A DNA stretch of 24,877 nt from a virus. The stretch is from positions 1 to 24,877 of IMG/VR virus record IMGVR_UViG_3300013131_000234. The stretch is one strand, 5' to 3'. Of the stretch, positions 1,191 through 16,812 are shown one piece after another (the first letter of the stretch is position 1; each line of letters opens with the position of its first letter). The notes below the pieces were generated by a model. That model saw only the letters and a program-made list of their open reading frames with translations, did no database searches and was not told where the DNA came from. Position numbers and translations under genes: made by a program.

Positions 1191-4088
1191 ATGTCAGAAG
1201 TTATTTCACAAGAGGTCATAGAAAGTTTTCTAAATGGTTGGGACTCAGAGGAGTATATAGTTGGAGTCGAGTACGACTACAAAACAAATAAAATTTATAA
1301 GGTTATACAGGACCCTGAAAGGGGTAAGATAATAAAGACGGATACTCTTGTACCATTTCTATGGGTTGGGGATTTATCGGGTTTAAATTTTTACCAAAAC
1401 AACAAGTCATTACAGAAAAAGAAAATGGGTGAGTATGGTATCATGATTGAAAAATTAGATACCCATGGTAATGAACGTCTTGAAAATGGTATGACGTACT
1501 TGGTAAAATCTATGAAAGGATATACCGAGTTGGTTAACTTTTTTAGACAGGGTGGGATAGACCCTTGGGGTGAGAAAACAAAACAATACTTTACAATACT
1601 TTCGCCCGTTGAACAATTTTTAATACAAAAAAAGAAAAGACTCTTCAAGGGAATTGATGATTATTCGGGTGTTCACAGATTTGTATTTGACATTGAAACC
1701 ACTGGTCTTGAACCTGAAACCAGTGAGATAATTCTTATCGGAGTAAAAGATAATCGCGGTTTACAAAGAACTATTTCCGCCTTTGGTGAAGATGGTGAAA
1801 AAAAATGTATTGAAGAGTTTTTTGAACTAATAAGAGAAGTAAAACCAACAATTATTGGTGGATATAACTCTGCATTTTTTGATTGGCCATTTATTTTAAA
1901 AAGGGCACATATTCTTGGTGTTGACGTTAATGGTCTGACACAAATATTCACCGCTCAGGGAATGAAAGAAAAGGAAGGGATGTTGAAATTAGCCAATGAA
2001 ATTGAACCATATACCCAACACGTTATATGGGGATTTAATATAATTGATATTGCCCACTCTGTTCGTAGAGCACAAGCAATCAACTCCGAAATTAAATCTT
2101 GGGGATTGAAATATATTACGAAGTATTTGGAAAAAGAAAAACCAAATCGTGTGTATGTTGATGGTGCATGGATTTCAAAAATATATCTTGAAAATGAAAG
2201 TTACTACGTGAATCCAAAAACGGGTAACTATAAAAAGATTGGCGAGTCGGGAACTGAAGGTTTACTTAAAAAGTATCCGGGTAAGTTTGAGATTTGGCCG
2301 GGTCGTAGGATTGTTGAACAATACCTTGATGATGACTTGTACGAAACAATGATTGTTGATGATTCTTTCTCACAATCAACTTTCCTACTTTCAAAGTTAG
2401 TACCAACAACTTACGAAAGGATTGCCACTATGGGTACCGCCACACTATGGAAGATTATAATGTTGGCGTGGTCATATGAAAATAATTTAGCAATCCCAAC
2501 TAAAGATGAAAAACGTGCAATTACAGGTGGATTGTCTCGTTTATTAAACGTTGGTTACGCTAAAAACATTGTCAAATTTGACTATGCATCACTATACCCG
2601 TCTATTCAACTGGTTTATGATGTATTTCCTGATTGTGATGTTATGAATGTTCAGAAATCAATGTTGAAATATTTCCGTAACATTCGTATTAAATATAAAC
2701 GTCTCGCCGGAGAATTAAAGTCAAGTGACCTTGTTCAGTCGGAGATGTATGACCGAAAACAATTACCAATTAAAATTTTTATCAATGCATATTTCGGTTC
2801 TTTGTCTGCGCCACAGGTATTCCCTTGGGGTGATATGAACATGGGTGAAACAATTACTTGTACAGGTCGTCAATGTCTTAGAATGATGATTATGTTTTTC
2901 ATGAACAAAGGATATAAACCACTTGTGATGGATACGGATGGTGTGAACTTTGAAACTCCTGACACAATTAATACTCACGTTTATATTGGTATAGGAAACA
3001 ATGAATTAGTGGAATTAGGAAAGGAATATAAAGGTATTGAAGCCGATACTGCGGAGTTCAATGACCTTTTCATGAGAAATGAAATGGGTTTAGATATTGA
3101 CTACACCGCACCTGCGTGTATTAATGTTTCTCGTAAGAACTACATTATCAAACTAATAAAGAAAGGTAAAGAAGTTATAAAACTTACAGGTAACACAATC
3201 AAGTCAAAAAAATTACAAGAATACATAGTTGAATTTTTGGACGAGGGTTTAAAACTCCTTTTAAATGGTGATGGACTTTCGTTTGTTGAGTTATATTATC
3301 AACACGTTGAAAAAATATTTAATAAAGAAATACCATTATCAAAGATTGCAAACAAAGCGAGAGTAAAACAATCTGTTGACGATTATAAAAAACATATTAA
3401 GAAAACAACCAAGTCGGGTTCATTAATGTCTCGACAAGCTCATATGGAATTAGTTTTACAAAACAATTATCCTGCGGGTCTCGGTGAGACTATCTATTAT
3501 GTTAACAATGGGACAAATAAATCCGATGGAGATGTACAGAAAGTTTCTAAACCAAGTAAAAAAAGACAAGAAGAGTTTTTTACAACTAATGGTTATCAAA
3601 TGCCATTCGATTATTTGGAAATAAATTGTTATATGATTTCTGAAAAAGATATTCAAAACAATCCAAATATGACGGGGGACTATAATGTTGCCAGATATTT
3701 GACAACATTCAACAAAAGAATTGAACCATTACTTTGTGTTTTCAAACCTGAGATACGAGAGGACATTTTAATTGAAGACCCCAAAGACAGACAATACTTC
3801 ACAAAGTCACAATGTGAACTAATAAGTGGTCAACCATTAAAAGAAGATGGTCAAGATAAGTTCGATGAGGTTATGACACTATCAGATAGTGAGGTGATGT
3901 TTTGGAATAGAGTTCAAAGAGACCCATTCTTTATGTATGTAGAGAATAGTATAGATTTAGTTGACAAGTATTGGGTTGACCACAATCGTAAGGTTGTAAA
4001 TCTACAAGTTGCCAGTACAAAGAGTAACGAAGACGAGATAATTCAAACCAATGGTAATGACTTTGCATACCATGCGGTGGAAAGTTAA
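1191..4088 (+). CDS. gp43: family B DNA polymerase with 3'-5' exonuclease (T4 gp43-like)
   Basis: A replicative polymerase of 965 residues (T4 gp43 is about 900). The exonuclease domain shows Exo I FDIETTGLEP (D167, E169), Exo II GGYNSAFFDWPF (N226, D231) and Exo III YLDDD (Y378, D382), so proofreading looks intact. The polymerase domain shows motif A DYASLYPS (D464), motif B KIFINAYFG (K528, N532, G536) and motif C DTDG (D581, D583). Motif C has Gly where T4 and most family B enzymes have Ser. The start at 1191 is preceded by an A-rich stretch and no Shine-Dalgarno sequence. It is transcribed from its own host-type promoter. Its TAA shares bases with the stop of the convergent neck gene. It sits between fibre-like and neck genes, away from any visible clamp, primase or main replicative helicase. 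Confidence 0.97.
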   Translation: MSEVISQEVIESFLNGWDSEEYIVGVEYDYKTNKIYKVIQDPERGKIIKTDTLVPFLWVGDLSGLNFYQNNKSLQKKKMGEYGIMIEKLDTHGNERLENGMTYLVKSMKGYTELVNFFRQGGIDPWGEKTKQYFTILSPVEQFLIQKKKRLFKGIDDYSGVHRFVFDIETTGLEPETSEIILIGVKDNRGLQRTISAFGEDGEKKCIEEFFELIREVKPTIIGGYNSAFFDWPFILKRAHILGVDVNGLTQIFTAQGMKEKEGMLKLANEIEPYTQHVIWGFNIIDIAHSVRRAQAINSEIKSWGLKYITKYLEKEKPNRVYVDGAWISKIYLENESYYVNPKTGNYKKIGESGTEGLLKKYPGKFEIWPGRRIVEQYLDDDLYETMIVDDSFSQSTFLLSKLVPTTYERIATMGTATLWKIIMLAWSYENNLAIPTKDEKRAITGGLSRLLNVGYAKNIVKFDYASLYPSIQLVYDVFPDCDVMNVQKSMLKYFRNIRIKYKRLAGELKSSDLVQSEMYDRKQLPIKIFINAYFGSLSAPQVFPWGDMNMGETITCTGRQCLRMMIMFFMNKGYKPLVMDTDGVNFETPDTINTHVYIGIGNNELVELGKEYKGIEADTAEFNDLFMRNEMGLDIDYTAPACINVSRKNYIIKLIKKGKEVIKLTGNTIKSKKLQEYIVEFLDEGLKLLLNGDGLSFVELYYQHVEKIFNKEIPLSKIANKARVKQSVDDYKKHIKKTTKSGSLMSRQAHMELVLQNNYPAGLGETIYYVNNGTNKSDGDVQKVSKPSKKRQEEFFTTNGYQMPFDYLEINCYMISEKDIQNNPNMTGDYNVARYLTTFNKRIEPLLCVFKPEIREDILIEDPKDRQYFTKSQCELISGQPLKEDGQDKFDEVMTLSDSEVMFWNRVQRDPFFMYVENSIDLVDKYWVDHNRKVVNLQVASTKSNEDEIIQTNGNDFAYHAVES

Positions 4089-5255: not shown

Positions 5256-6446
5256 GTGAAATCAAAATTTAAATTCAAATACACTAAAAGTAGGTTTTCA
5301 CAAGGAATCAATAGAATTTGTGTGGGTAAAAAACCATACGACACCTCTAAAAGTATCCTTACGAGCAATTGGAGGGTGATTTATGATGTTTTCTATTCAA
5401 AGTATGGTCAGTATGGAAAAGTAACGGAGAATGGTGAGGAAGGTGTTTTAACACCTAAAAGAACTTGGTCTGCGGTAAACCAATTTAACACTCACACAGA
5501 TATTCAGGATATAATTGTTCAATATCTAAATCAAAATATATCAAATGATTTTTTCTCTAAAGGTATAGAGGAGATTGATGGTAGAAAGGTTAAGTTAATC
5601 GATTTTGACCCCAAAAATGAAGACGTTCAATCTATTAACGATGAGCTAAAAAATTATTTTAATTGGTTATATTATTATGGTGATAAATTATTTAAGGACT
5701 TGGGTAAAGTATCCAAGAACGATATTTTACATCACCTTTTAGAAATTGCAACTTTTACAATGGCTGCCGGCACATTTAGTGAACTTGCTGTTGAGTTTTT
5801 TCTAAAAACAAAGTATCCTGATGGTTATGATGTAATTAGAAATTCATCATTAAGGGGTAACTCAGATGATATGAAAAATGGTGTGGACTTGTACACAATA
5901 GAAAAGAAAATACCATATAAAAAGAAAAAGTTCCAAATAAAAAACGCAAGGATTTATGATGAAAACGTAATTTATAAATCCATCAACACATCTTATTATT
6001 CTGATAAGGGAATAGATTATTTGGTTTTAGCTCAAATGAATATTGATGAAAATACCCATATCCCAAACCCATCTACTATGATTTTCTTAAAGATGTCCCC
6101 CAATTTATTTGACACTAAGAAAAGTAAAGTGGGTAGATATTCATATTCATATAAAAAAGAACAAGTAATAATGGAAGAACAAATTAACCCAATTTTTAAA
6201 TCAAAAATATTTTTTGAATTTTTTATGTATTGTTCCAAGCACGGAATAGAATTTAACATGGATGTTTTGGAAGAAACAAGTATTAAAATTGGTGATAAGT
6301 CGGTGAATGTAATTCTACCAAAAAATCATCAAGATTTTAATGAATCAGTTATAATAGATTCTTGGAGAGATTTAATTAATCAGTTTGAAAAGGATGTACC
6401 TAAGAAAGAAAGTTTAGAGTACTTAGAGGAGCTCATTAAGAAGTGA
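5256..6446 (+). CDS. possible PD-(D/E)XK-fold nuclease
   Basis: A 396-residue soluble protein with a GTG start; the host-type promoter ends 17 bases upstream and supports this start. It is rich in Lys, Tyr and Phe. A candidate restriction-endonuclease-fold core lies at residues 172-229: helix GTFSELAVEFF (G172, E176, possibly E180), then NGVDLY (D211) and FQIKNA (Q227, K229). The order GxxxE, D, (Q/E)xK is that of PD-(D/E)XK enzymes, with the common Gln replacement. The N-terminal 150 residues and the C-terminal 130 residues match nothing I recognise. It lies between the divergent gp13-like gene and a convergent SNF2 helicase, overlapping the helicase 3' end by 24 bases. A role in host DNA breakdown, recombination or defence is inference; it could be an unrelated hypothetical protein. 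Confidence 0.5.
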   Translation: MKSKFKFKYTKSRFSQGINRICVGKKPYDTSKSILTSNWRVIYDVFYSKYGQYGKVTENGEEGVLTPKRTWSAVNQFNTHTDIQDIIVQYLNQNISNDFFSKGIEEIDGRKVKLIDFDPKNEDVQSINDELKNYFNWLYYYGDKLFKDLGKVSKNDILHHLLEIATFTMAAGTFSELAVEFFLKTKYPDGYDVIRNSSLRGNSDDMKNGVDLYTIEKKIPYKKKKFQIKNARIYDENVIYKSINTSYYSDKGIDYLVLAQMNIDENTHIPNPSTMIFLKMSPNLFDTKKSKVGRYSYSYKKEQVIMEEQINPIFKSKIFFEFFMYCSKHGIEFNMDVLEETSIKIGDKSVNVILPKNHQDFNESVIIDSWRDLINQFEKDVPKKESLEYLEELIKK

Positions 6447-8174
6447 TTGAGCAAAACTTTCTGAATATTCATTATCTCCCATTACTTGGTCGATAATATT
6501 CTTTTTCTTTTGTAATATATTATAAACAATCATTTCGATTGTGTTTTCGAAAATAGGGTAGTAAACGAGTACACTATTCTTCTGTCCATATCTATACGCC
6601 CTATCTTCTGCTTGAGAGTGGTCTGAAGGTACAAATGATAGGTCATTCATTATTACTGTTTCCGCAGCGGTTAAAGTAATCCCAACACCTCCCGCTTTAA
6701 TATTGGATATAAATATTTTTACTTTATCCTCGTTTTGAAATCTGTCAACACTTTCTTGTCTTCTTTCTTTTGACATTCTACCATCAAGGGTCACGGAATT
6801 TTTCTTATACTTCTCGTGAATCATATCCAAACTCATAGTAAAGTTTGTAAATACAATAACTTTTTTACCTTGTTCTATAAACTTATCAATTAACTCACAT
6901 GTGTATGGTACTTTTTCGTATGCAATCACTTGTCTAATTTTCATTAAACGATTTAATGTCACACTAATTGATTCATTCTTTTTGTTTTCCTTAGATATTC
7001 TCATGAATTCTTCTAACTCTTCATTGTAAAAAGTACTCTGCATATCTAAAAAAACAGGGGTGATAATTTTTTCGGGTAAATCGAGAATGTCGGTTTTCAT
7101 TCTTCTTAATACCAAATTTTTTGTTCTTTCTCTTAGTTCATCTAAATTACTTGCACCGCCTGTGTTCCATATTTTTTTACCTCCTACTCTAAACTGATAA
7201 CCGGCACAATATCTTCTGACATAACCTTGCCAATTTAATGCAATTGGTGAATTAACAATTTTTAATAAATTATAATAGTTTATCGGTCTTGATGTCATTG
7301 GGGTTCCCGTGAGTAACCACACCTTAGGTATTTGTTTTACAATATCATTAATTAGTTTTGTTCTCTGTGCTGTTGGATTTGAAACGTAGTGGGCTTCATC
7401 AATTATTACTAAATCAAAATTTTCATTTATGATTAATTTATATGCTTCACTATCTTCTGATTTATCGGTTGTATGATAGTTTTTTAATATATCATAATTG
7501 ATTATATAATAATCAAATGTGGAACCCCATTTTCTGCCCTCAACAATTAATGATTTTTTTCTTGAGTAATTTTCAATCTCTCTTGACCAGTTAATCTTTA
7601 GTGATGCGGGACAAATAATTAAAACTTTTTTTGCTCCACTTTCTAATGAAGCAATAATCGCGGACGTACTTTTACCAAGACCCATATCATCAGCAAGAAT
7701 GTATTTGTCATTGGCTAACAATTTTTCAATGGCTTCTTTTTGATGTTCCATTGGTGGTCTATGTGAGTAAGGACTATAATCTATTATTCTGTCTAATTTT
7801 TTTTCTTCTTGGACAATAGATGATTTTGGAAGCCACATCGCATGATTCGTTTCGGAATCAAGAATTTTACCCCATATATGGTATGCCTTATCGCTTTCAC
7901 ACAATAATTTTTCACACCAAATCTTTTCGGGTACTTTGGTTAACTTCTTGTCCTCCATAATTTTTTCACCAAAATTCTTGGCAATGGTGATATGCTTTCG
8001 AGCAACTCGAGGTACTGTTTCGTGATACTTTACAACATATTCCGCTTGAGGTCTTGTTAATTGAAAATTTTTAACATTCTGAAATTTGTTTTTCCAATCA
8101 AGTAATTGATTGTTAAAACCTTCATATTCAAGCAGTATATCCCTCGCCTCTATTTCGAGAATCTTGTTCTGCAT
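6423..8174 (-). CDS. SNF2-family DNA helicase/translocase (SMARCAL1-like)
   Basis: A 583-residue superfamily 2 ATPase of the Swi2/Snf2 type. Numbered from the chosen start: PPMEHQKEAI near 140-149, Walker A DDMGLGKST (162-170), DEAH (259-262), LTGTP (288-292), motif V KAGGVGITLT (493-502) and motif VI QAEDRAYRYGQ (521-531). The last is typical of SNF2 proteins. About 135 N-terminal residues precede the motor and match no domain I can name. The frame is open 25 codons further up to a TTG at 8249, but ATG 8174 is chosen because the longer form would run into the opposite gene and past the promoter-like and TATTTATT elements. Such enzymes remodel DNA, for example by annealing or fork reversal; in phages a role in replication or recombination (as for T4 UvsW, a different family) is plausible. 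Its 3' end overlaps the nuclease-like gene by 24 bases. Confidence 0.9.
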   Translation of the reverse strand: MQNKILEIEARDILLEYEGFNNQLLDWKNKFQNVKNFQLTRPQAEYVVKYHETVPRVARKHITIAKNFGEKIMEDKKLTKVPEKIWCEKLLCESDKAYHIWGKILDSETNHAMWLPKSSIVQEEKKLDRIIDYSPYSHRPPMEHQKEAIEKLLANDKYILADDMGLGKSTSAIIASLESGAKKVLIICPASLKINWSREIENYSRKKSLIVEGRKWGSTFDYYIINYDILKNYHTTDKSEDSEAYKLIINENFDLVIIDEAHYVSNPTAQRTKLINDIVKQIPKVWLLTGTPMTSRPINYYNLLKIVNSPIALNWQGYVRRYCAGYQFRVGGKKIWNTGGASNLDELRERTKNLVLRRMKTDILDLPEKIITPVFLDMQSTFYNEELEEFMRISKENKKNESISVTLNRLMKIRQVIAYEKVPYTCELIDKFIEQGKKVIVFTNFTMSLDMIHEKYKKNSVTLDGRMSKERRQESVDRFQNEDKVKIFISNIKAGGVGITLTAAETVIMNDLSFVPSDHSQAEDRAYRYGQKNSVLVYYPIFENTIEMIVYNILQKKKNIIDQVMGDNEYSESFAQSLLNELL

Positions 8175-8180
8175 ATAAAC

Positions 8181-8211
8181 TAAATATAATAAAATAGAAT
8201 GAATAATTGAA
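8181..8211 (-). promoter_or_regulatory. degenerate host-type promoter for the SNF2 helicase
   Basis: On the minus strand: TTC (8211-8209), a 20-base spacer, then TATATTTA (8188-8181). Each box differs by one base from the TTG and TATATTTG of the other two promoters, but the spacer is the same length as at 5208-5238. Only 6 bases separate it from the ATG at 8174, so the transcript would be almost leaderless. Confidence 0.4.
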
Positions 8212-8212
8212 C

Positions 8213-8220
8213 TATTTATT
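8213..8220 (+). promoter_or_regulatory. TATTTATT motif 4 bases before ATG 8225
   Basis: One-base variant of the TATTTATA octamer. It directly abuts the outer box of the divergent helicase promoter and supports ATG 8225 as the start of the next gene, rather than the in-frame TTG at 8207 that lies upstream of the motif. Confidence 0.45.
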
Positions 8221-8224
8221 GAGT

Positions 8225-8737
8225 ATGAAGCATAAATTACCCATAACAAGAGTCAGTAAATTCTTTTCAGAAACAGATTTTGATTTGAATCAAATGATAG
8301 GTCAAGAATACCTTCATGGGGATTTAAATATGAAATTGGTTCTGTTCAGAGTTGACAAACAAAAGACTGATACGGATGAGGTTTATGCTGAGGTTGGTAA
8401 AGACCAAATTAAATTTTTACCTCCTGTTGAGTTTAATGGTTTAGTAAAGATTGAGGAACCAAAAAATACTACTTATAAGGGTGGGTTAGGTAGATACTTA
8501 GAGCCGGGTAATATGACAATATCTGTTTACATTAAACATTTAGAAGAATTAAAAATAGATATTAGATATGGTGACTACATCGGTTATCCTGAAAGCGAAG
8601 AAAGAATTAGGTACTATACAGTAACCAATGATGGTAAAGTAACATCGGATAATAAACATAATATGTTTGGTTTTAAACCACATTATAGAACAATCATTTG
8701 TGTACCAGCACAAGAATCTGAATTTAGAGGAATATAA
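8225..8737 (+). CDS. probable neck protein, gp14-like
   Basis: A 170-residue protein from ATG 8225. An in-frame TTG six codons upstream (8207) is possible but has no support. No motif is diagnostic. The segment YGDYIGYPESEERIRYYTV followed by PHYRTIICVP resembles the part of T4-type gp14 where an EGD-I-FP turn leads to a final strand pair (P-Y-L-CE). Gene order supports this: next, 2 bases downstream, comes a gp15-like gene, and the gp13-like gene is nearby, matching the T4 series 13-14-15. T4 gp14 (about 256 residues) is longer. In T4, gp14 joins gp13 in the neck after DNA packaging. It may instead be a lineage-specific tail completion protein. It is co-transcribed with the gp15-like gene. 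Confidence 0.5.
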   Translation: MKHKLPITRVSKFFSETDFDLNQMIGQEYLHGDLNMKLVLFRVDKQKTDTDEVYAEVGKDQIKFLPPVEFNGLVKIEEPKNTTYKGGLGRYLEPGNMTISVYIKHLEELKIDIRYGDYIGYPESEERIRYYTVTNDGKVTSDNKHNMFGFKPHYRTIICVPAQESEFRGI

Positions 8738-10276: not shown

Positions 10277-13123
10277 ATGGCAAATTCAAATAGAGTATTT
10301 GTATCTCCGGGTGTATACACATCAGAAAAAGATTTAACATTCGTAGCACAGAGTGTTGGTGTTACAACCCTTGGTTTAGTTGGTGAGACCCTTAAAGGTC
10401 CCGCTTTTGAACCAATCCTTGTAACAGATTATGATGAGTTTAAACTTTACTTCGGAGGTTCTACACCAGTAAAAGATGGTAATGGTAACCCAAAATTCGA
10501 GTTACCTTACGTAGCAAAATCTTACCTTGAGGAATCAAATCAACTTTTCGTAACAAGAATTCTTGGTCTTACAGGTTATAAACCTGTTAAGACTTACGCA
10601 ATTAAAACCCTCGGTGGTTTAACCTTGGGTTCTTTGAGTGGTTCAACCACAGGTACATGTGACCCATCTACTTTCAATCAAATAACAGGTAGTACATTCT
10701 TTGAAAATATTTCAGGAGTTACTTCATATGATGGTCAAACTATGGCTAATTATCTATTGTCCTCATTTAGTGGTAACACAAACGCTGACCACGGACAATG
10801 GTTCGTTATTGGTGAAGTACCATCATCATCTACATCAGGTTTAACGGCAAGTTTAGAAGAAATTTCACCTTTAACAGGTTTAAACAATGCTGACAACCAA
10901 AATGGTAAAGAATGGTATAATATAGTATGTAATTCAAGTGGTACTGAGGTTTACGCCTACCTATTTGAATACACATCAGGTGGTACAGGAACTTTCAACG
11001 TTACTCAATTTGTTTATAACTCAACAGTTAAAAGTGAACACAACAATAAAGTTGTAGCCGCTTTCAGACCAAGAGGTTCATACTCAGGTCAAACTTTGGG
11101 TCTTGAATTGACAGGTAACACAAGTTTCAATGTTGTAGGTAGTTCACTTGGGGTGAACCCATTCTCTGAATTTACAATTCAGGTTACGGGTACAACAAGT
11201 AGCGGTAAGACATTTACATGTTCTATGGACACAACATCATCTAAGTACATAACTAAAGTTTTAGGTACTGATGTGTTTGATAAACCAAGAAATGAAGTAC
11301 CTATCTATGTTTACGAAGCATATCCTGCATACTTAAAAGCCGCGTTCCAACAAGGTAATGTAAGGGGTTTAAGTTTAAATGAAGTGTTTGTTTCAGAAGG
11401 TTCAAACTTCGCGGGACAATGGGATACCCCAATGTCACCAATGGTTGTATCTGAAGTTCGTGGTGGCGAAGTATCTGATTTGTTTGAAGTGATTACCATC
11501 TCTGATGGTAACGCAGCTAACGAACAAGTAAAAATTTCAATCATTAATATTAACTTAGAAACAGGTGAATTTGATATGTTAGTTCGTGATTTCAACGATA
11601 CTGACGACAATCAACTTGTTCTTGAAAAATTCACAAGATGTTCAATGAACCCTGACCTACCAGGTTATGTGGCGAGAAAAGTTGGTACATCTGATGGTGA
11701 GTATGAATTACGTTCTAAGTATATCATGTTAAACATGGCAAGTAACCATCCCGTAGATGCATTCCCTGCTGGTTTTAAAGGATTCGTGGCTAACACATCG
11801 TTCTCAGGTACAACCTTGGGTTCTGTTATGTTTAAAACTCAATTCTTTGACGCTGGTGACGTTATGGGATACGAAGCCGATGGTACCCCTATCCTTTCAG
11901 GTGGGGACAAAATCAGAAAGATAACCTTTGGTTTATCTTCTCAGACAGGATTTGATAAGGATTTATTTAAGTATAAGGGGGCCGGAGCGGTAGGTACTAC
12001 TAATGGTTTCCACTTATCTACAAGTGCATCAACAATCACAGGTACAACATTCACAACTACATCTTACGACTTAGAGGGTCAATCAGGTGTTGATAATGTT
12101 ATGACCAACATCAACTATCGTAAATTCACCTTTGCGGTGTGTGGTGGATTTGACGGATGGGACATTTACAGAGAAGTTAGAACATTCGGAGACTCTTATA
12201 TCTTCGGAAAGCCAACGTATGTTAGTGGAAACACATCAAATGGTGGTGTATTCAGTACTACGGTTGGTAACTCTGACTACTATTCATACTTAAAAGGTCT
12301 TGAGACCTACGCAAACCCCGAAGCTGTGGATATCAACATATTCGCATCTCCTGGTATCAACTTCTATGACCATAGTTCATTGACTGCACAGGCAATCGAC
12401 ATCATGGAAAATGATAGAGCGGATTCACTTTATATCATAGCACCACCTAATTTCTCAACAGTTGAGGAAGTGGTAGACGCTTTGGATGGTGTTTCTCTTG
12501 ACACTAACTATACAGCCACTTATTGGCCATGGATTCAAGTTAGAGACCAAGATAACGCCACCCAATTATTTGTTCCACCAACAGGTGAGGTTGTAAGAAA
12601 CATAGCCCTTACGGATAATGTGTCATTCCCTTGGTTCGCAGTAGCGGGTTACTCAAGAGGATTGGTAAAAGCCATCAAAGCAACCAAGAAATTGACCTTA
12701 GACGAAAGAGACGAATTGTATAAAAACAGAATTAACCCAATCGCAACCTTCTCAGATACAGGTACAATCATATGGGGTAACAAAACCCTTCAGGTTAGAG
12801 AATCTGCGTTGGACAGAATTAACGTAAGAAGACTCTTGTTAAGAGCCAGAAAGTTAATTTCAGCGGTTGCAGTTAGATTACTATTCGAACAAAACGACGA
12901 ACAAGTAAGAAACGAGTTCTTGAGATTGGTAAACCCAATTCTTGAGTCTATAAAGAGAGAAAGAGGTTTATACGAATTCCGTGTAACCGTATCAAATGAC
13001 CCTGAGGACATTGATGCAAACACTCTTAGAGGTAAGATTTATATCAAACCAACACGTTCACTTGAATTCATCGACGTTGAGTTCATAATAACACCTACTG
13101 GAGCATCATTCGATAATATCTAA
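10277..13123 (+). CDS. gp18: contractile tail sheath protein, T4 gp18-like
   Basis: A 948-residue sheath subunit, large compared with T4 gp18 (659). The N terminus VFVSPGVYTSEKDLTFVAQS, then GVTTLGLVGETLKGPAFEP and YFGG, is the standard sheath opening. The C terminus, from about residue 800, has FPWFAVAGYSRGLV, a long helical segment INVRRLLLRARKLISA, LFEQNDEQVRNEF and the closing GKIYIKPTRSLEFIDVEFII. This is the conserved contractile domain that joins neighbouring subunits. About 140 residues (roughly 112-250, rich in Ser, Thr, Gly) are inserted before the VVAAFRPRGSYSG strand and probably sit on the outer surface. Subunits stack on the tube and contract to drive it through the envelope. 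The gene stands alone between a TATTTATT motif and a strong hairpin terminator. Codon use is biased to A/T-ending codons. Confidence 0.96.
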   Translation: MANSNRVFVSPGVYTSEKDLTFVAQSVGVTTLGLVGETLKGPAFEPILVTDYDEFKLYFGGSTPVKDGNGNPKFELPYVAKSYLEESNQLFVTRILGLTGYKPVKTYAIKTLGGLTLGSLSGSTTGTCDPSTFNQITGSTFFENISGVTSYDGQTMANYLLSSFSGNTNADHGQWFVIGEVPSSSTSGLTASLEEISPLTGLNNADNQNGKEWYNIVCNSSGTEVYAYLFEYTSGGTGTFNVTQFVYNSTVKSEHNNKVVAAFRPRGSYSGQTLGLELTGNTSFNVVGSSLGVNPFSEFTIQVTGTTSSGKTFTCSMDTTSSKYITKVLGTDVFDKPRNEVPIYVYEAYPAYLKAAFQQGNVRGLSLNEVFVSEGSNFAGQWDTPMSPMVVSEVRGGEVSDLFEVITISDGNAANEQVKISIININLETGEFDMLVRDFNDTDDNQLVLEKFTRCSMNPDLPGYVARKVGTSDGEYELRSKYIMLNMASNHPVDAFPAGFKGFVANTSFSGTTLGSVMFKTQFFDAGDVMGYEADGTPILSGGDKIRKITFGLSSQTGFDKDLFKYKGAGAVGTTNGFHLSTSASTITGTTFTTTSYDLEGQSGVDNVMTNINYRKFTFAVCGGFDGWDIYREVRTFGDSYIFGKPTYVSGNTSNGGVFSTTVGNSDYYSYLKGLETYANPEAVDINIFASPGINFYDHSSLTAQAIDIMENDRADSLYIIAPPNFSTVEEVVDALDGVSLDTNYTATYWPWIQVRDQDNATQLFVPPTGEVVRNIALTDNVSFPWFAVAGYSRGLVKAIKATKKLTLDERDELYKNRINPIATFSDTGTIIWGNKTLQVRESALDRINVRRLLLRARKLISAVAVRLLFEQNDEQVRNEFLRLVNPILESIKRERGLYEFRVTVSNDPEDIDANTLRGKIYIKPTRSLEFIDVEFIITPTGASFDNI

Positions 13124-13414: not shown

Positions 13415-13903
13415 ATGGCAGATTTACTAATGAAAATGCCGGTTCCTTACGAACCGAAAAGAGTTAACCGATTCATTCTTCGTTTCCCATCAACATTGGG
13501 TATCAACGAATGGTATGTATCGTCAGCGGCTAGACCAAGTGCAAAAATCAACTCAGTTGCAATTCCTTTCATCAACACTTCAACTTACGTTGCAGGTAGA
13601 TTTGAATGGAATGAAATGAGAGTAACCTTTAAGGACCCAATTGGTCCTTCAGCTTCTCAAGCATTAATGGAGTGGTTCCGTTTACACGCTGAATCAGTAA
13701 CAGGTCGTATGGGATACGCTGCGGGATATAAGAAAGATATTGAATTGGAAATGCTAGACCCAACGGGTGTTGTGGTTGAAAAATGGATTCTTCAAGGAAC
13801 ATTTATCACAGACTTGAACTTCAATGAACTTGATTACTCAAGAGATGATATTGCAACTATCACATGTTCTTTAAGAATGGATAGATGTATTCAAGTATAC
13901 TAA
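13415..13903 (+). CDS. gp19: tail tube protein, T4 gp19-like
   Basis: A 162-residue subunit, about the same size as T4 gp19 (163). It starts MADLLMKMPVPYEPKRVNRF, with the conserved NRFILRFPSTLGI strand. It continues with VSSAARPS, INSVAIPFINTSTYVAGRFEWNEMRVTFKDP, and the SQALMEWFRLHAESVTGRMGY helix region. LEMLDPTGVVVEKWILQGTFITDLNFNELDYSRDDI follows, in the usual order of the tube fold. These form hexameric rings that stack inside the sheath and provide the DNA channel. The gene has its own spacer region upstream and its own terminator downstream, which suits a protein needed in very high copy number. Confidence 0.95.
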   Translation: MADLLMKMPVPYEPKRVNRFILRFPSTLGINEWYVSSAARPSAKINSVAIPFINTSTYVAGRFEWNEMRVTFKDPIGPSASQALMEWFRLHAESVTGRMGYAAGYKKDIELEMLDPTGVVVEKWILQGTFITDLNFNELDYSRDDIATITCSLRMDRCIQVY

Positions 13904-14007: not shown

Positions 14008-14757
14008 ATGGAAGAATTAAGAATTGACCCAACGATTGCATATGACGTTGTGGAATTACCTTCAAGAGGTATTCATTATCCAAGTAAAAAGAAATCTTTA
14101 AGAGTTGCTTATCTCACTGCCGCAGATGAAAATATATTATCTGCACAGAATTTAATCGCATCAAATAATGTTGTTGAAGAATTACTTAAAAGAAAAGTAT
14201 TAGATAGAGAATTTAATACCGATGATTTAGTCGATGAGGATAAACAAGCGGTTTTATTATTTTTGAGAAATACCGCATTTGGCCCCGAATATAAAGTTTT
14301 CCTTACTGACCCAAAAACAAATAATGACTTTACAGAAATAATTGATATAAGTGAGGTTAAGTTTAAGGATTTTACTTTAGAGCCTGATTCAAATGGTGAA
14401 TTTCAATATAGAATGGAAAAAAGTAATGTTGAAGTCACATTTAAATTCTTGAATAAAAAACAAAAAAAGGAATTAGAAGAATTAGAAAAGAGCTGGAATG
14501 GTCAAGGGGTCCCACCTGTAAAAACAAAAGAGTTGGAGATGATGATAAAATCTGTTGCGGGCAACAGAGAAATTATGAATATCCACAACTTTATACAAAA
14601 ATTACCAATAAAAGATAGTCAAGACTTTAGAAAGTTTGTCAAAGAAACTACACCAAGTTTAGACCTAACAAGAAATGTTAAATCCCCGTCAGGAGAGTCC
14701 GTACAAATTGAAATCGGGTTCGGGGTAGAGTTTTTTCGCCCTTTCTACGGATTATAA
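14008..14757 (+). CDS. gp26: gp26-like baseplate hub/tail assembly protein, zero-frame product
   Basis: A 249-residue protein of the T4 base plate protein family that includes gp26 (208 residues in T4). The family signature is visible: VVELPSRGIHYPSKK, a VAYLTAADENILSAQNLI helix, VVEELLKRKVLD, DLVDEDKQAVLLFLRNTAFG. It then has an acidic middle part, a Lys/Glu helix near 150-165 and PSLDLTRNVKSPSGESVQIEIGF near the end. In T4, gp26 acts in baseplate hub assembly. The zero frame ends after GVEFFRPFYGL at TAA 14755-14757. The +1 frame across this region encodes a good 50-residue continuation, so this protein is probably made in a short and a long form, in the manner of tail assembly chaperones with programmed frameshifts. 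It lies directly before the probable tape measure gene, the usual place for such chaperones. Confidence 0.78.
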   Translation: MEELRIDPTIAYDVVELPSRGIHYPSKKKSLRVAYLTAADENILSAQNLIASNNVVEELLKRKVLDREFNTDDLVDEDKQAVLLFLRNTAFGPEYKVFLTDPKTNNDFTEIIDISEVKFKDFTLEPDSNGEFQYRMEKSNVEVTFKFLNKKQKKELEELEKSWNGQGVPPVKTKELEMMIKSVAGNREIMNIHNFIQKLPIKDSQDFRKFVKETTPSLDLTRNVKSPSGESVQIEIGFGVEFFRPFYGL

Positions 14758-14890
14758 AAAAGGTCAGCTCGACGAAATATTATATTTGGTTAAAAGAGGT
14801 TTTTCCTACGGGGATGTTCTCTCTATGCCCGTCTTCATAAGAAGGTACTATGTTAATTATTTACTTGAATTGGAAAACGGACCAAAATAG
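14729..14890 (+). CDS. +1-frame extension of the gp26-like gene (probable frameshift product)
   Basis: A 53-codon open frame, one base ahead of the gp26-like frame, from after a TAG (14726-14728) to TAG 14888-14890. It has no ATG or GTG before codon 33 (ATG 14825); only a weak TTG at 14786 precedes that. The peptide FFALSTDYKKGQLDEILYLV then KRGFSYGDVLSMPVFIRRYY looks like real protein. The pattern of a hydrophobic helix, F-Y-G-V, MPV-RR-YY resembles the small second frame often found beside phage tail chaperone genes. The overlap contains TTT TTT CGC C: tRNA-Phe moving from TTT to TTC in the +1 direction, before a CGC codon, would join residues 1-243 to 50 new ones (about 293 in total). A separate small gene, a decayed gene end or an assembly error are the alternatives. 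Confidence 0.6.
   Translation, partial: SFFALSTDYKKGQLDEILYLVKRGFSYGDVLSMPVFIRRYYVNYLLELENGPK
14731..14740 (+). other. candidate +1 ribosomal frameshift site TTT TTT CGC C
   Basis: In the zero frame the codons are GAG TTT TTT CGC CCT. A +1 move at the second TTT re-pairs on TTC, the better match for the usual tRNA-Phe anticodon GAA, and the waiting codon CGC is likely rare in this AT-rich genome. After the move the next codon is GCC and the frame stays open to 14890. Confidence 0.5.
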
Positions 14891-14901: not shown

Positions 14902-16812
14902 ATGCCACGTAAGTTATCAGATAGTGTTATTAGAAACCTTTTAGGTCAGAGGGGGAATGACGACCCAACTAATTTTGGAAACGCAATAAGAATGGGCGGA
15001 GGAAGTGATGATGATGTTGCTTATGGTACAACTTTATTTAATCAAAGATTTGGAAATCAAGGAGGTGGTAACACAGGAGGTGGAAGTAATAGTGGCGGAG
15101 GAAGTGGGGGAAGTGGCGGACCAAATACATTTCAAAAGGTCACTGGAAGTCTTTTAGAAGTTGGTGCAGGATTAATTTCAACACAAGAGTCAATAGGTTA
15201 TATGCCTGCATTCTCAAAAGAGTATATAAAAATGTCCGATGCAATTAAGGGCATGTTAGATAGTGGTGGAAATTTAAAAGGTATTGGAGATTTATTAAAA
15301 CAAGTATTAACCACGGCTCGGGGTCAAATTGAATTATATTATACACAACAAACCGAATTACTACACCAAGTAAATGAACAAGCGGGATTAACAGGACAAT
15401 TTTCAAAAGATTTTAGAAAAGAATTAACCGAAACGAATCCGCAATTATTAAGAATTGGAATTGGATTTGAAGAACTTGCAAATAGTGCAGTAAAAGTTGT
15501 CGAACAAAGTGGAAAATTTACTGCTTTAAGTAGGGAAACATGGAAAGAAGCGGGATACGCAGCAAAAGCATATGTTGGACAATTAAGTGACTTAGTTCAA
15601 ATGTATCCTGCATTCGAAAAAATTGGATTAGGAGCATCTGATTCAGCAAAAGAAATTACAAAGGCGGGTCAAAGGTCTATTGAGTTGGGACTACAATCAC
15701 AAAAAGTAACAAAAGAACTTAGTACCAATCTTGGTAAATTGAATGAATATGGTTTCAAAAATGGAGTACAGGGACTTTCTGAGATGGTAAGAAAATCAAT
15801 AGAGTTTAGAATGAATATGGATTCAGTAACAAAAATTGCAGATAAAGTATTCAATCCAGAGGGAGCTATTGATTTGGCAGCAAATCTACAAGCAATTGGT
15901 GGTGCTATTGGTGATTTTAATGACCCATTAAAAATGATGTACATGGCAACAAATAACGTCGAAGGTTTACAAGACGCGTTAATTGGTGCTGCGGGGGGAT
16001 TGGCAACTTATAACAAAGAACAAAGTAGATTTGAAGTAACAGGAGTCAATCTTAGAAAATCAAAGGCGATGGCGGATGAATTAGGAATGTCAATGCAAGA
16101 ACTTAACAACATTGCAATTGCTGCGGCTGAAAGAAGTGCCGCATCCGCTGAGTTAATGGCTAGTGGTTTAAAGTTAGATGAAGACCAAAAAAGATTCATA
16201 ACTAACATCGCCACAATGAAAGATGGTAAAATGACCATTGCTCTTCAAAGTGATGAATTAAGACAAGCGTTTGGTGCAAGTGAAATTGCACTTGATAATT
16301 TGACAGAAGACCAAGCAAAACAATTAATGAAATACCAAGAGGAGTTTAAAAAATTAACTCCTGAAGATATTGTTAGAAAGCAAGCAACAGACATTGAAAA
16401 CATTTCAAGAGACATGAATTTTGTTGCCGCATTACTGAGACAAGAGTTTGCAAAGACTGGGTCATCAATTGCGAAACAACTTGGATATGACCCCGCATCA
16501 ATTGCTGAACAAACAAAAAAGTTAGCTGACGAATGGGGACCAAATATAAAAGGTGCAGGTCAATACCTAAAAGGAAAAATCGAAGGAGATGGTGCATCTA
16601 AAAAAGTAGAGGAAGCGTTAAAGGAAAATAAAAATACACAAGGAGGTTCACAACAAACTTCTCAAAAATCTGAGGTTAATGTTAATTTCAAAACAAACGA
16701 TAGATTACAAGACGATATCTATAGGAACTTCTTTAACAATCCAGATACAAAACAGAACATAGCCGCAGCTGCATTCCCAAGTAGGGAATATGATAGTCCT
16801 CAAATGGCTTAA
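14902..16812 (+). CDS. probable tail tape measure / baseplate hub protein (gp29 position)
   Basis: A 636-residue protein, mostly predicted alpha-helical, rich in Ala, Lys, Glu and Gln. Parts in order: a charged N terminus; a Gly/Ser linker (about residues 54-74, GGGNTGGGSNSGGGSGGSGG); long helical stretches from about 85 to 570 with amphipathic Ala-rich segments; and a polar C-terminal tail (TQGGSQQTSQKSEVNVNF) ending in YDSPQMA. No strong membrane segment, lysozyme or peptidase motif is seen. Size is close to T4 gp29 (590), the T4 tape measure. It follows the gp26-like chaperone candidate and precedes large baseplate genes, the normal place for a tape measure. Such proteins fill the tube and set its length. 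No family motif proves it; a helical baseplate hub component is the alternative. A TATTTATA motif lies 3 bases before the start. Confidence 0.58.
   Translation: MPRKLSDSVIRNLLGQRGNDDPTNFGNAIRMGGGSDDDVAYGTTLFNQRFGNQGGGNTGGGSNSGGGSGGSGGPNTFQKVTGSLLEVGAGLISTQESIGYMPAFSKEYIKMSDAIKGMLDSGGNLKGIGDLLKQVLTTARGQIELYYTQQTELLHQVNEQAGLTGQFSKDFRKELTETNPQLLRIGIGFEELANSAVKVVEQSGKFTALSRETWKEAGYAAKAYVGQLSDLVQMYPAFEKIGLGASDSAKEITKAGQRSIELGLQSQKVTKELSTNLGKLNEYGFKNGVQGLSEMVRKSIEFRMNMDSVTKIADKVFNPEGAIDLAANLQAIGGAIGDFNDPLKMMYMATNNVEGLQDALIGAAGGLATYNKEQSRFEVTGVNLRKSKAMADELGMSMQELNNIAIAAAERSAASAELMASGLKLDEDQKRFITNIATMKDGKMTIALQSDELRQAFGASEIALDNLTEDQAKQLMKYQEEFKKLTPEDIVRKQATDIENISRDMNFVAALLRQEFAKTGSSIAKQLGYDPASIAEQTKKLADEWGPNIKGAGQYLKGKIEGDGASKKVEEALKENKNTQGGSQQTSQKSEVNVNFKTNDRLQDDIYRNFFNNPDTKQNIAAAAFPSREYDSPQMA

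Follow-up and report, generated by a model that had tools for sequence, protein, structure and literature searches.

A tail assembly chaperone gene with an overlapping second frame

The window analysed here is the whole stretch of 24,877 nt, positions 1 to 24,877 of IMG/VR virus record IMGVR_UViG_3300013131_000234. It carries a gp26-like tail assembly chaperone gene (TAC-N) whose 3' end is overlapped by a second coding part in the +1 frame (TAC-C); read together, the two would give a longer product (TAC-NC). The features of the locus are as follows.

13415..13903, + strand: tail tube gene (phrog_4542, E=2.6e-24)
14008..14757, + strand: TAC-N, gp26-like short tail assembly chaperone, zero frame, 249 aa
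within 14008..14757, + strand: TAC-N residues 1-243, the part common to TAC-N and the predicted fusion
14722..14724, + strand: GGG Gly codon upstream of the slip site, invariant in close representatives, possible cis element
14731..14737, + strand: putative slip site TTT TTT C, with P-site UUU at 14734-14736 and forward re-pairing on UUC at 14735-14737
14737..14739, + strand: CGC, zero-frame A-site codon, very rare in the window
14738..14890, + strand: TAC-C, +1-frame extension, 50 aa plus TAG stop
14740..14757, + strand: zero-frame tail PFYGL plus stop, predicted to be translated only in the absence of a shift
14008..14890, + strand: TAC-NC, predicted frameshift product, 293 aa
14902..16812, + strand: presumed tape measure gene, 636 aa, assigned by position, starting 11 nt past the TAC-C stop

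The zero-frame ORF ends in ...GFGVEFFRPFYGL*, with its stop codon at 14755-14757, while the +1 frame is open over 14729-14890 (53 codons, stop at 14888-14890). Between the zero-frame and +1-frame coding parts, positions 14728-14742 read GAG TTT TTT CGC CCT. The -1 frame of the window reaches just 27 codons beyond the zero-frame stop. The initial annotation, which had proposed a 243 + 50 residue fusion directly before the tape measure, was right about the zero-frame stop at 14757, the TTT TTT CGC C string in the overlap (within 14728-14740), the product and its position before the presumed tape measure gene. It had also described the +1 frame as having no ATG or GTG until near its end; GTG is absent, but the sole ATG (14825, residue 33 of 53) comes somewhat earlier than stated.

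The chaperone gene thus lies between the tail tube gene and the tape measure gene, the latter identified by position. A profile search for a family match to the 14902..16812 product gave none that was convincing, and in phage immuto the gene at this place carries a tape measure annotation. Gene order is alike in relatives: a tail tube match lies upstream of the chaperone in 267/282, and a long ORF follows closely downstream in 172/286, the others being mostly limited by the extent of their sequence. Other genes of the window include one for a 948-aa tail sheath protein (10277-13123), whose Pfam sheath domains all fall in the C-terminal third. A family B DNA polymerase (1191-4088) and a SNF2-type helicase (6423-8249) are encoded near the tail genes. 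An ORF open at the window edge (1-723) encodes a long Thr-Pro repeat (TPTPTPT...), which appears as Gly-Val ORFs when the opposite strand is read. Leaders in the window are A-rich and mostly lack a Shine-Dalgarno sequence, which together with a Flavobacterium relative suggests a Bacteroidota host.

TAC-N matches PF12322 (T4_baseplate; E=3e-8, 34 bits against a curated cut-off of 24.5) and phrog_150 (baseplate hub; E=6.7e-9). We folded TAC-N and TAC-C separately with AlphaFold2. The TAC-N model (pLDDT 89, with residues 246-249 predicted to be disordered) resembles T4-like hub proteins by Foldseek, including the SP-15 hub (E=3.5e-15, TM 0.74) and gp26 of Aeromonas phage 25 (E=5e-5). TAC-C is predicted to form a compact three-helix bundle (pLDDT 91). 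Fold searches of the PDB with both models returned nothing significant, the HK97 tail chaperone scoring just E=2.5.

Conservation of the two-frame layout in close and distant relatives

To our scan of IMG/VR with the zero-frame protein we owe 60 loci, of which one is incomplete and 59 reach the gene end; these close metagenomic relatives share 58-78% identity. In the window and in 59/59 of them, TTTTTTCGN stands at the identical place, the slip site TTT TTT CGN is kept, the zero-frame stop codon falls 24-27 nt past the first T, and the +1 frame extends 42-44 codons beyond that stop as a conserved protein. Such constancy goes far beyond chance.

Past the zero-frame stop, differences in the +1 frame fall on codon positions 1/2/3 as 799/287/1868. 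Among 28 representatives, single-base codon differences in this frame are 1464 synonymous against 367 non-synonymous (pN/pS ~0.06), and the ratio is reversed in the other two frames. Both patterns indicate purifying selection on the +1 frame and thus its translation as protein. We searched the close relatives for an uninterrupted single-frame gene and found none. The alignment and substitution checks suggested by the initial annotation thus both favoured its probable +1 programmed frameshift: the layout and TTT TTT CGN are conserved, the protein-like +1 frame it had read at 14729-14890 evolves as a protein, and neither of the outcomes it had named as contrary, uninterrupted relatives or a second frame without protein conservation, appeared.

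Further scans together with named phages yielded 375 usable proteins (67 at 60% identity), and these correct the initial view of a feature of one phage: the +1 layout is the norm in much of the family. The +1 group comprises 222 unique relatives, with immuto, Mel-JY01, RM378, SP-15 and GXN1 among the named phages. The -1 frame is also open in 30 loci from the Mel-JY01 scan and 17 from a later scan, where the recognisable domain is in the +1 frame. In the -1 group (84 unique), which includes cyanophages, pelagiphage HTVC008M, Cr30 and KVP40, it is the -1 frame that encodes this domain, after U_UUU_UUC; there TTT TTC is preceded in almost all cases by a T-ending codon and followed by one codon and a stop. 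The window departs from this -1 pattern of NNT TTT TTC, its domain being encoded in +1 after TTT TTT CGC. Between the groups, the synonymous Phe codon flips with the predicted shift direction.

In a tree built from TAC-N minus the final 15 residues, a branch with SH-aLRT support of 99% divides the +1 from the -1 group, and T4 gp26 and gp51 fall on the -1 side; it is a quick tree with some long branches and no outgroup to show which state is older. The only reversal is one member of the +1 clade (L123, IMGVR_UViG_3300020442_002272, zero frame from 2501) that has TAC-C in the -1 frame behind AAT TTC TTC TGG. Its layout counts against the +1 model and may be either a direction reversal or a sequencing indel. 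On this tree, a single deep switch and one isolated reversal account for the distribution of the two grammars.

The second domain also connects to T4, in which gp26 and gp51 are separate genes that both match PF12322. The phrog_150 profile spans all of gp51, and in P-SSM2, S-PM2, HTVC008M and Cr30 its C-terminal part matches the second frame downstream; with TAC-NC the match reaches profile position 265 of 282, against 233 with TAC-N alone. By hhalign, TAC-C of the +1 group matches TAC-C of the -1 group at 96%, and the latter matches the T4 gp51 C-terminus at 92%, while direct alignment of the fusion profile with the single T4 gp26 or gp51 sequences is weak (~2% probability). Based on this profile chain and the phrog_150 extension, TAC-C is most likely homologous to the C-terminus of gp51, the domain that T4 carries in that protein.

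Slip site, proposed +1 shift and alternatives

The window has the features of a UUU_C site: a P-site UUU followed by C, with a zero-frame CGN codon in the A site. That codon, CGC, makes up 3/6754 codons in the window. Across the wider +1 group, 221/223 unique relatives have TTT as their P-site codon (one or two exceptions), against a background in which TTT is 69% of Phe codons. The following base is T (131) or C (91) and never a purine (222/222), and where Arg occupies the A-site place its codon is CGN in 91/91, although among nearby Arg codons CGN accounts for only about one in four. Together, the P-site UUU, the pyrimidine rule and CGN are consistent with tRNA-Phe slipping one base forward (+1) from UUU onto UUC or UUU. 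The A-site codon of the wider group is often UGG or UAC, which at 7 and 11 per 1000 are not especially rare; a rare-codon stall is therefore at best part of the mechanism.

Other cis elements are less evident. The GGG at 14722-14724 is present in 28/28 close representatives; the Gly, Phe, Val and Glu codons around it are variable, and GGG is 7% of Gly codons. It may be a cis signal, yet it is not universal among wider relatives, and the GGGGU that it forms 4 nt ahead of the first UUU, a possible closely spaced Shine-Dalgarno, is lacking in them. No stimulatory RNA structure downstream of the slip was supported (window z=-1.0), and no covarying base pairs were found; the sole consensus hairpin has the slip site within it and shows no covariation.

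We consider it very probable that one start yields a chaperone of two lengths, TAC-N and a rarer TAC-NC made by a +1 P-site slip on UUU_C. Most ribosomes would stay in the zero frame to 14757 and make the 249-aa TAC-N. A minority would reach UUU UUU CGC with peptidyl-tRNA-Phe on the second UUU and the A site awaiting the rare CGC-reading tRNA; tRNA-Phe could then re-pair one base ahead on UUC, which is the better match, and reading would resume as GCC CUU UCU... to 14890, giving the 293-aa TAC-NC (243+50). By analogy with lambda G/GT, TAC-N may coat the tape measure protein and TAC-C may recruit tail tube subunits. The frame layout, its conservation, the selection on the second frame, the homology of TAC-C and the codon grammar are results of the comparison; that a shift takes place, which way it goes in the window, how efficient it is and what the protein does are inferred from them. 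At a UUU_UUU_C site the +1 slip predicts a transframe peptide ending ...GVEFFALSTDYK, and in immuto, at CTT_T, a tryptic junction peptide FFPEDGPDGGVDIPIGVSFLGLTPEYR.

Because -2 and +1 shifts reach the same frame, we also weighed a -2 slippage as in phage Mu gpGT, which would insert an extra Phe (EFFFALS rather than EFFALS) and for a UUU_UUU_C relative predicts a transframe peptide ending ...GVEFFFALSTDYK. Such a shift is known for Mu (PMC5009743, PMC3498833), and the six T's permit -2 re-pairing in the window and 208/222 relatives. However, it is impossible in 14/222 relatives that keep the layout: at TTC TTT Y and TTT CTT TGG sites the ribosome could re-pair at +1, not at -2. The strict pyrimidine after the P-site codon and the CGN-only Arg are expected under +1, not under -2, and there is no downstream structure of the type that drives backward shifts. 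We therefore regard a -2 shift as quite unlikely. Polymerase slippage on the T-run, shifting the frame in some mRNAs, would suit a site at which most relatives carry six or seven T's, but 11 relatives have runs of only 3 or 4, and slippage of this kind needs neither a pyrimidine after the P-site codon nor a CGN codon; we give it a very slender chance.

Two further readings were weighed. TAC-C could be translated as a small protein of its own from an independent start, or be reached by reinitiation past the zero-frame stop, and a small gene is indeed annotated here in the immuto, Mel-JY01 and SP-15 records. Against this, the first 20 codons contain no ATG, GTG or TTG in 109/222 relatives, no start position is conserved (at most 25%), conservation reaches back to the FF junction, and T4 gp51 has the same domain covalently attached, all of which makes independent translation a slim prospect. 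A local mutation or assembly error splitting one continuous gene could not have been ruled out from one contig by itself, but the break lies at the same base in 59 other contigs and recurs in the distant immuto, Mel-JY01, RM378 and SP-15. This shared layout leads us to reject such an error, whose likelihood we put close to nil. The +1 P-site slip is the reading that we carry forward.

Relation to known frameshift systems

Vladimirov, Gautam and Davidson 2022 (Virology 566:9-15) reportedly described frameshifted tail assembly chaperones in T4-like phages. Passages in papers that cite this work present T4-like chaperones as a gp26-type TAC-N and a gp51-type TAC-C with frameshift fusion in several groups (PMC12846349, PMC10885494, citing Vladimirov et al. 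2022), and give their sites as poly-T -1 signals (PMC12846349 citing Vladimirov et al. 2022). These belong to the same protein family as the window, but the cited signals are -1 poly-T, whereas the window clade has UUU_UUU_Y and a predicted +1 shift. More generally, frameshifting of tail chaperones is classical, with -1, -2 and +1 cases and T4 as an exception (PMC5009743). The initial annotation had called a +1 event notable, T4 gp26 not being known to frameshift; this stands for the direction and the site, while frameshifting of T4-like chaperones as such had already been reported. In the literature consulted, where the 2022 Virology paper is represented by the papers citing it, we found no description of the +1 half, its codon grammar or the single deep switch. 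Tail-chaperone frameshifting is thus known, and the +1 grammar across half of the family looks new.

Like lambda gpG/gpGT, the window would encode a chaperone of two lengths next to the tape measure gene through a frameshift close to the 3' end, and it has the G/GT-type arrangement in which a conserved second frame overlaps the 3' end of the short gene; the lambda shift is -1 (PMC5009743), and the likeness drawn here is one of layout. Phage Mu gpGT and the halovirus HSTV-2 chaperones have their extension in the -2/+1 frame as in the window (PMC5009743). Mu shifts -2, and HSTV-2, an archaeal virus, very likely shifts +1 (PMC5009743); both are likened to the window by layout alone.

The closest parallel for the site is influenza A PA-X, where +1 shifting at UCC_UUU_CGU was demonstrated by protein sequencing and the authors predicted a general UUU_C class (PMC3498833). 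Both sites combine an A-site CGN codon and the lack of an evident stimulator with a +1 P-site slip on UUU_C, which for the window is proposed (PMC3498833, PMC5009743); PA-X differs in its eukaryotic ribosome, unrelated gene and E-site UCC, which is UUU in the window. Bacterial prfB (release factor 2) likewise involves a +1 slip of the P-site tRNA onto UUU (CUU_U), and the immuto CTT T is the same string. In prfB, however, the A site holds UGA and a Shine-Dalgarno sequence lies close by, whereas the window has the sense codon CGC and no clear Shine-Dalgarno. Altogether, we think it likely, with some reservation, that the same Phe-Phe codons serve two mirror-image grammars (U_UUU_UUC for -1, UUU_UUU_Y for +1) split by one ancient switch, and that the +1 half is a large, unannotated natural phage class of UUU_Y +1 sites working without a stop codon, clear Shine-Dalgarno or RNA structure.

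Should the direction be +1, this family would let forward and backward frameshifting be compared in nature on a near-identical U-rich string at the same protein junction, and it would add a wide range of bacterial examples to the UUU_C class that was foreseen from PA-X. How a phage lineage switched shift direction while keeping its chaperone would then become testable. For annotation, the consequence is that current records truncate the chaperone, with the second domain given as a separate small gene or unlisted; this affects hundreds of contigs from uncultivated myoviruses as well as phages of Flavobacterium, Microcystis, Bacillus and Rhodothermus. In three public records (L061 6854-6964, L063 4728-4964, L228 3812-3931), the frameshifted domain or part of it is annotated as a separate hypothetical gene, and the chaperone itself is labelled baseplate hub subunit or hypothetical protein.
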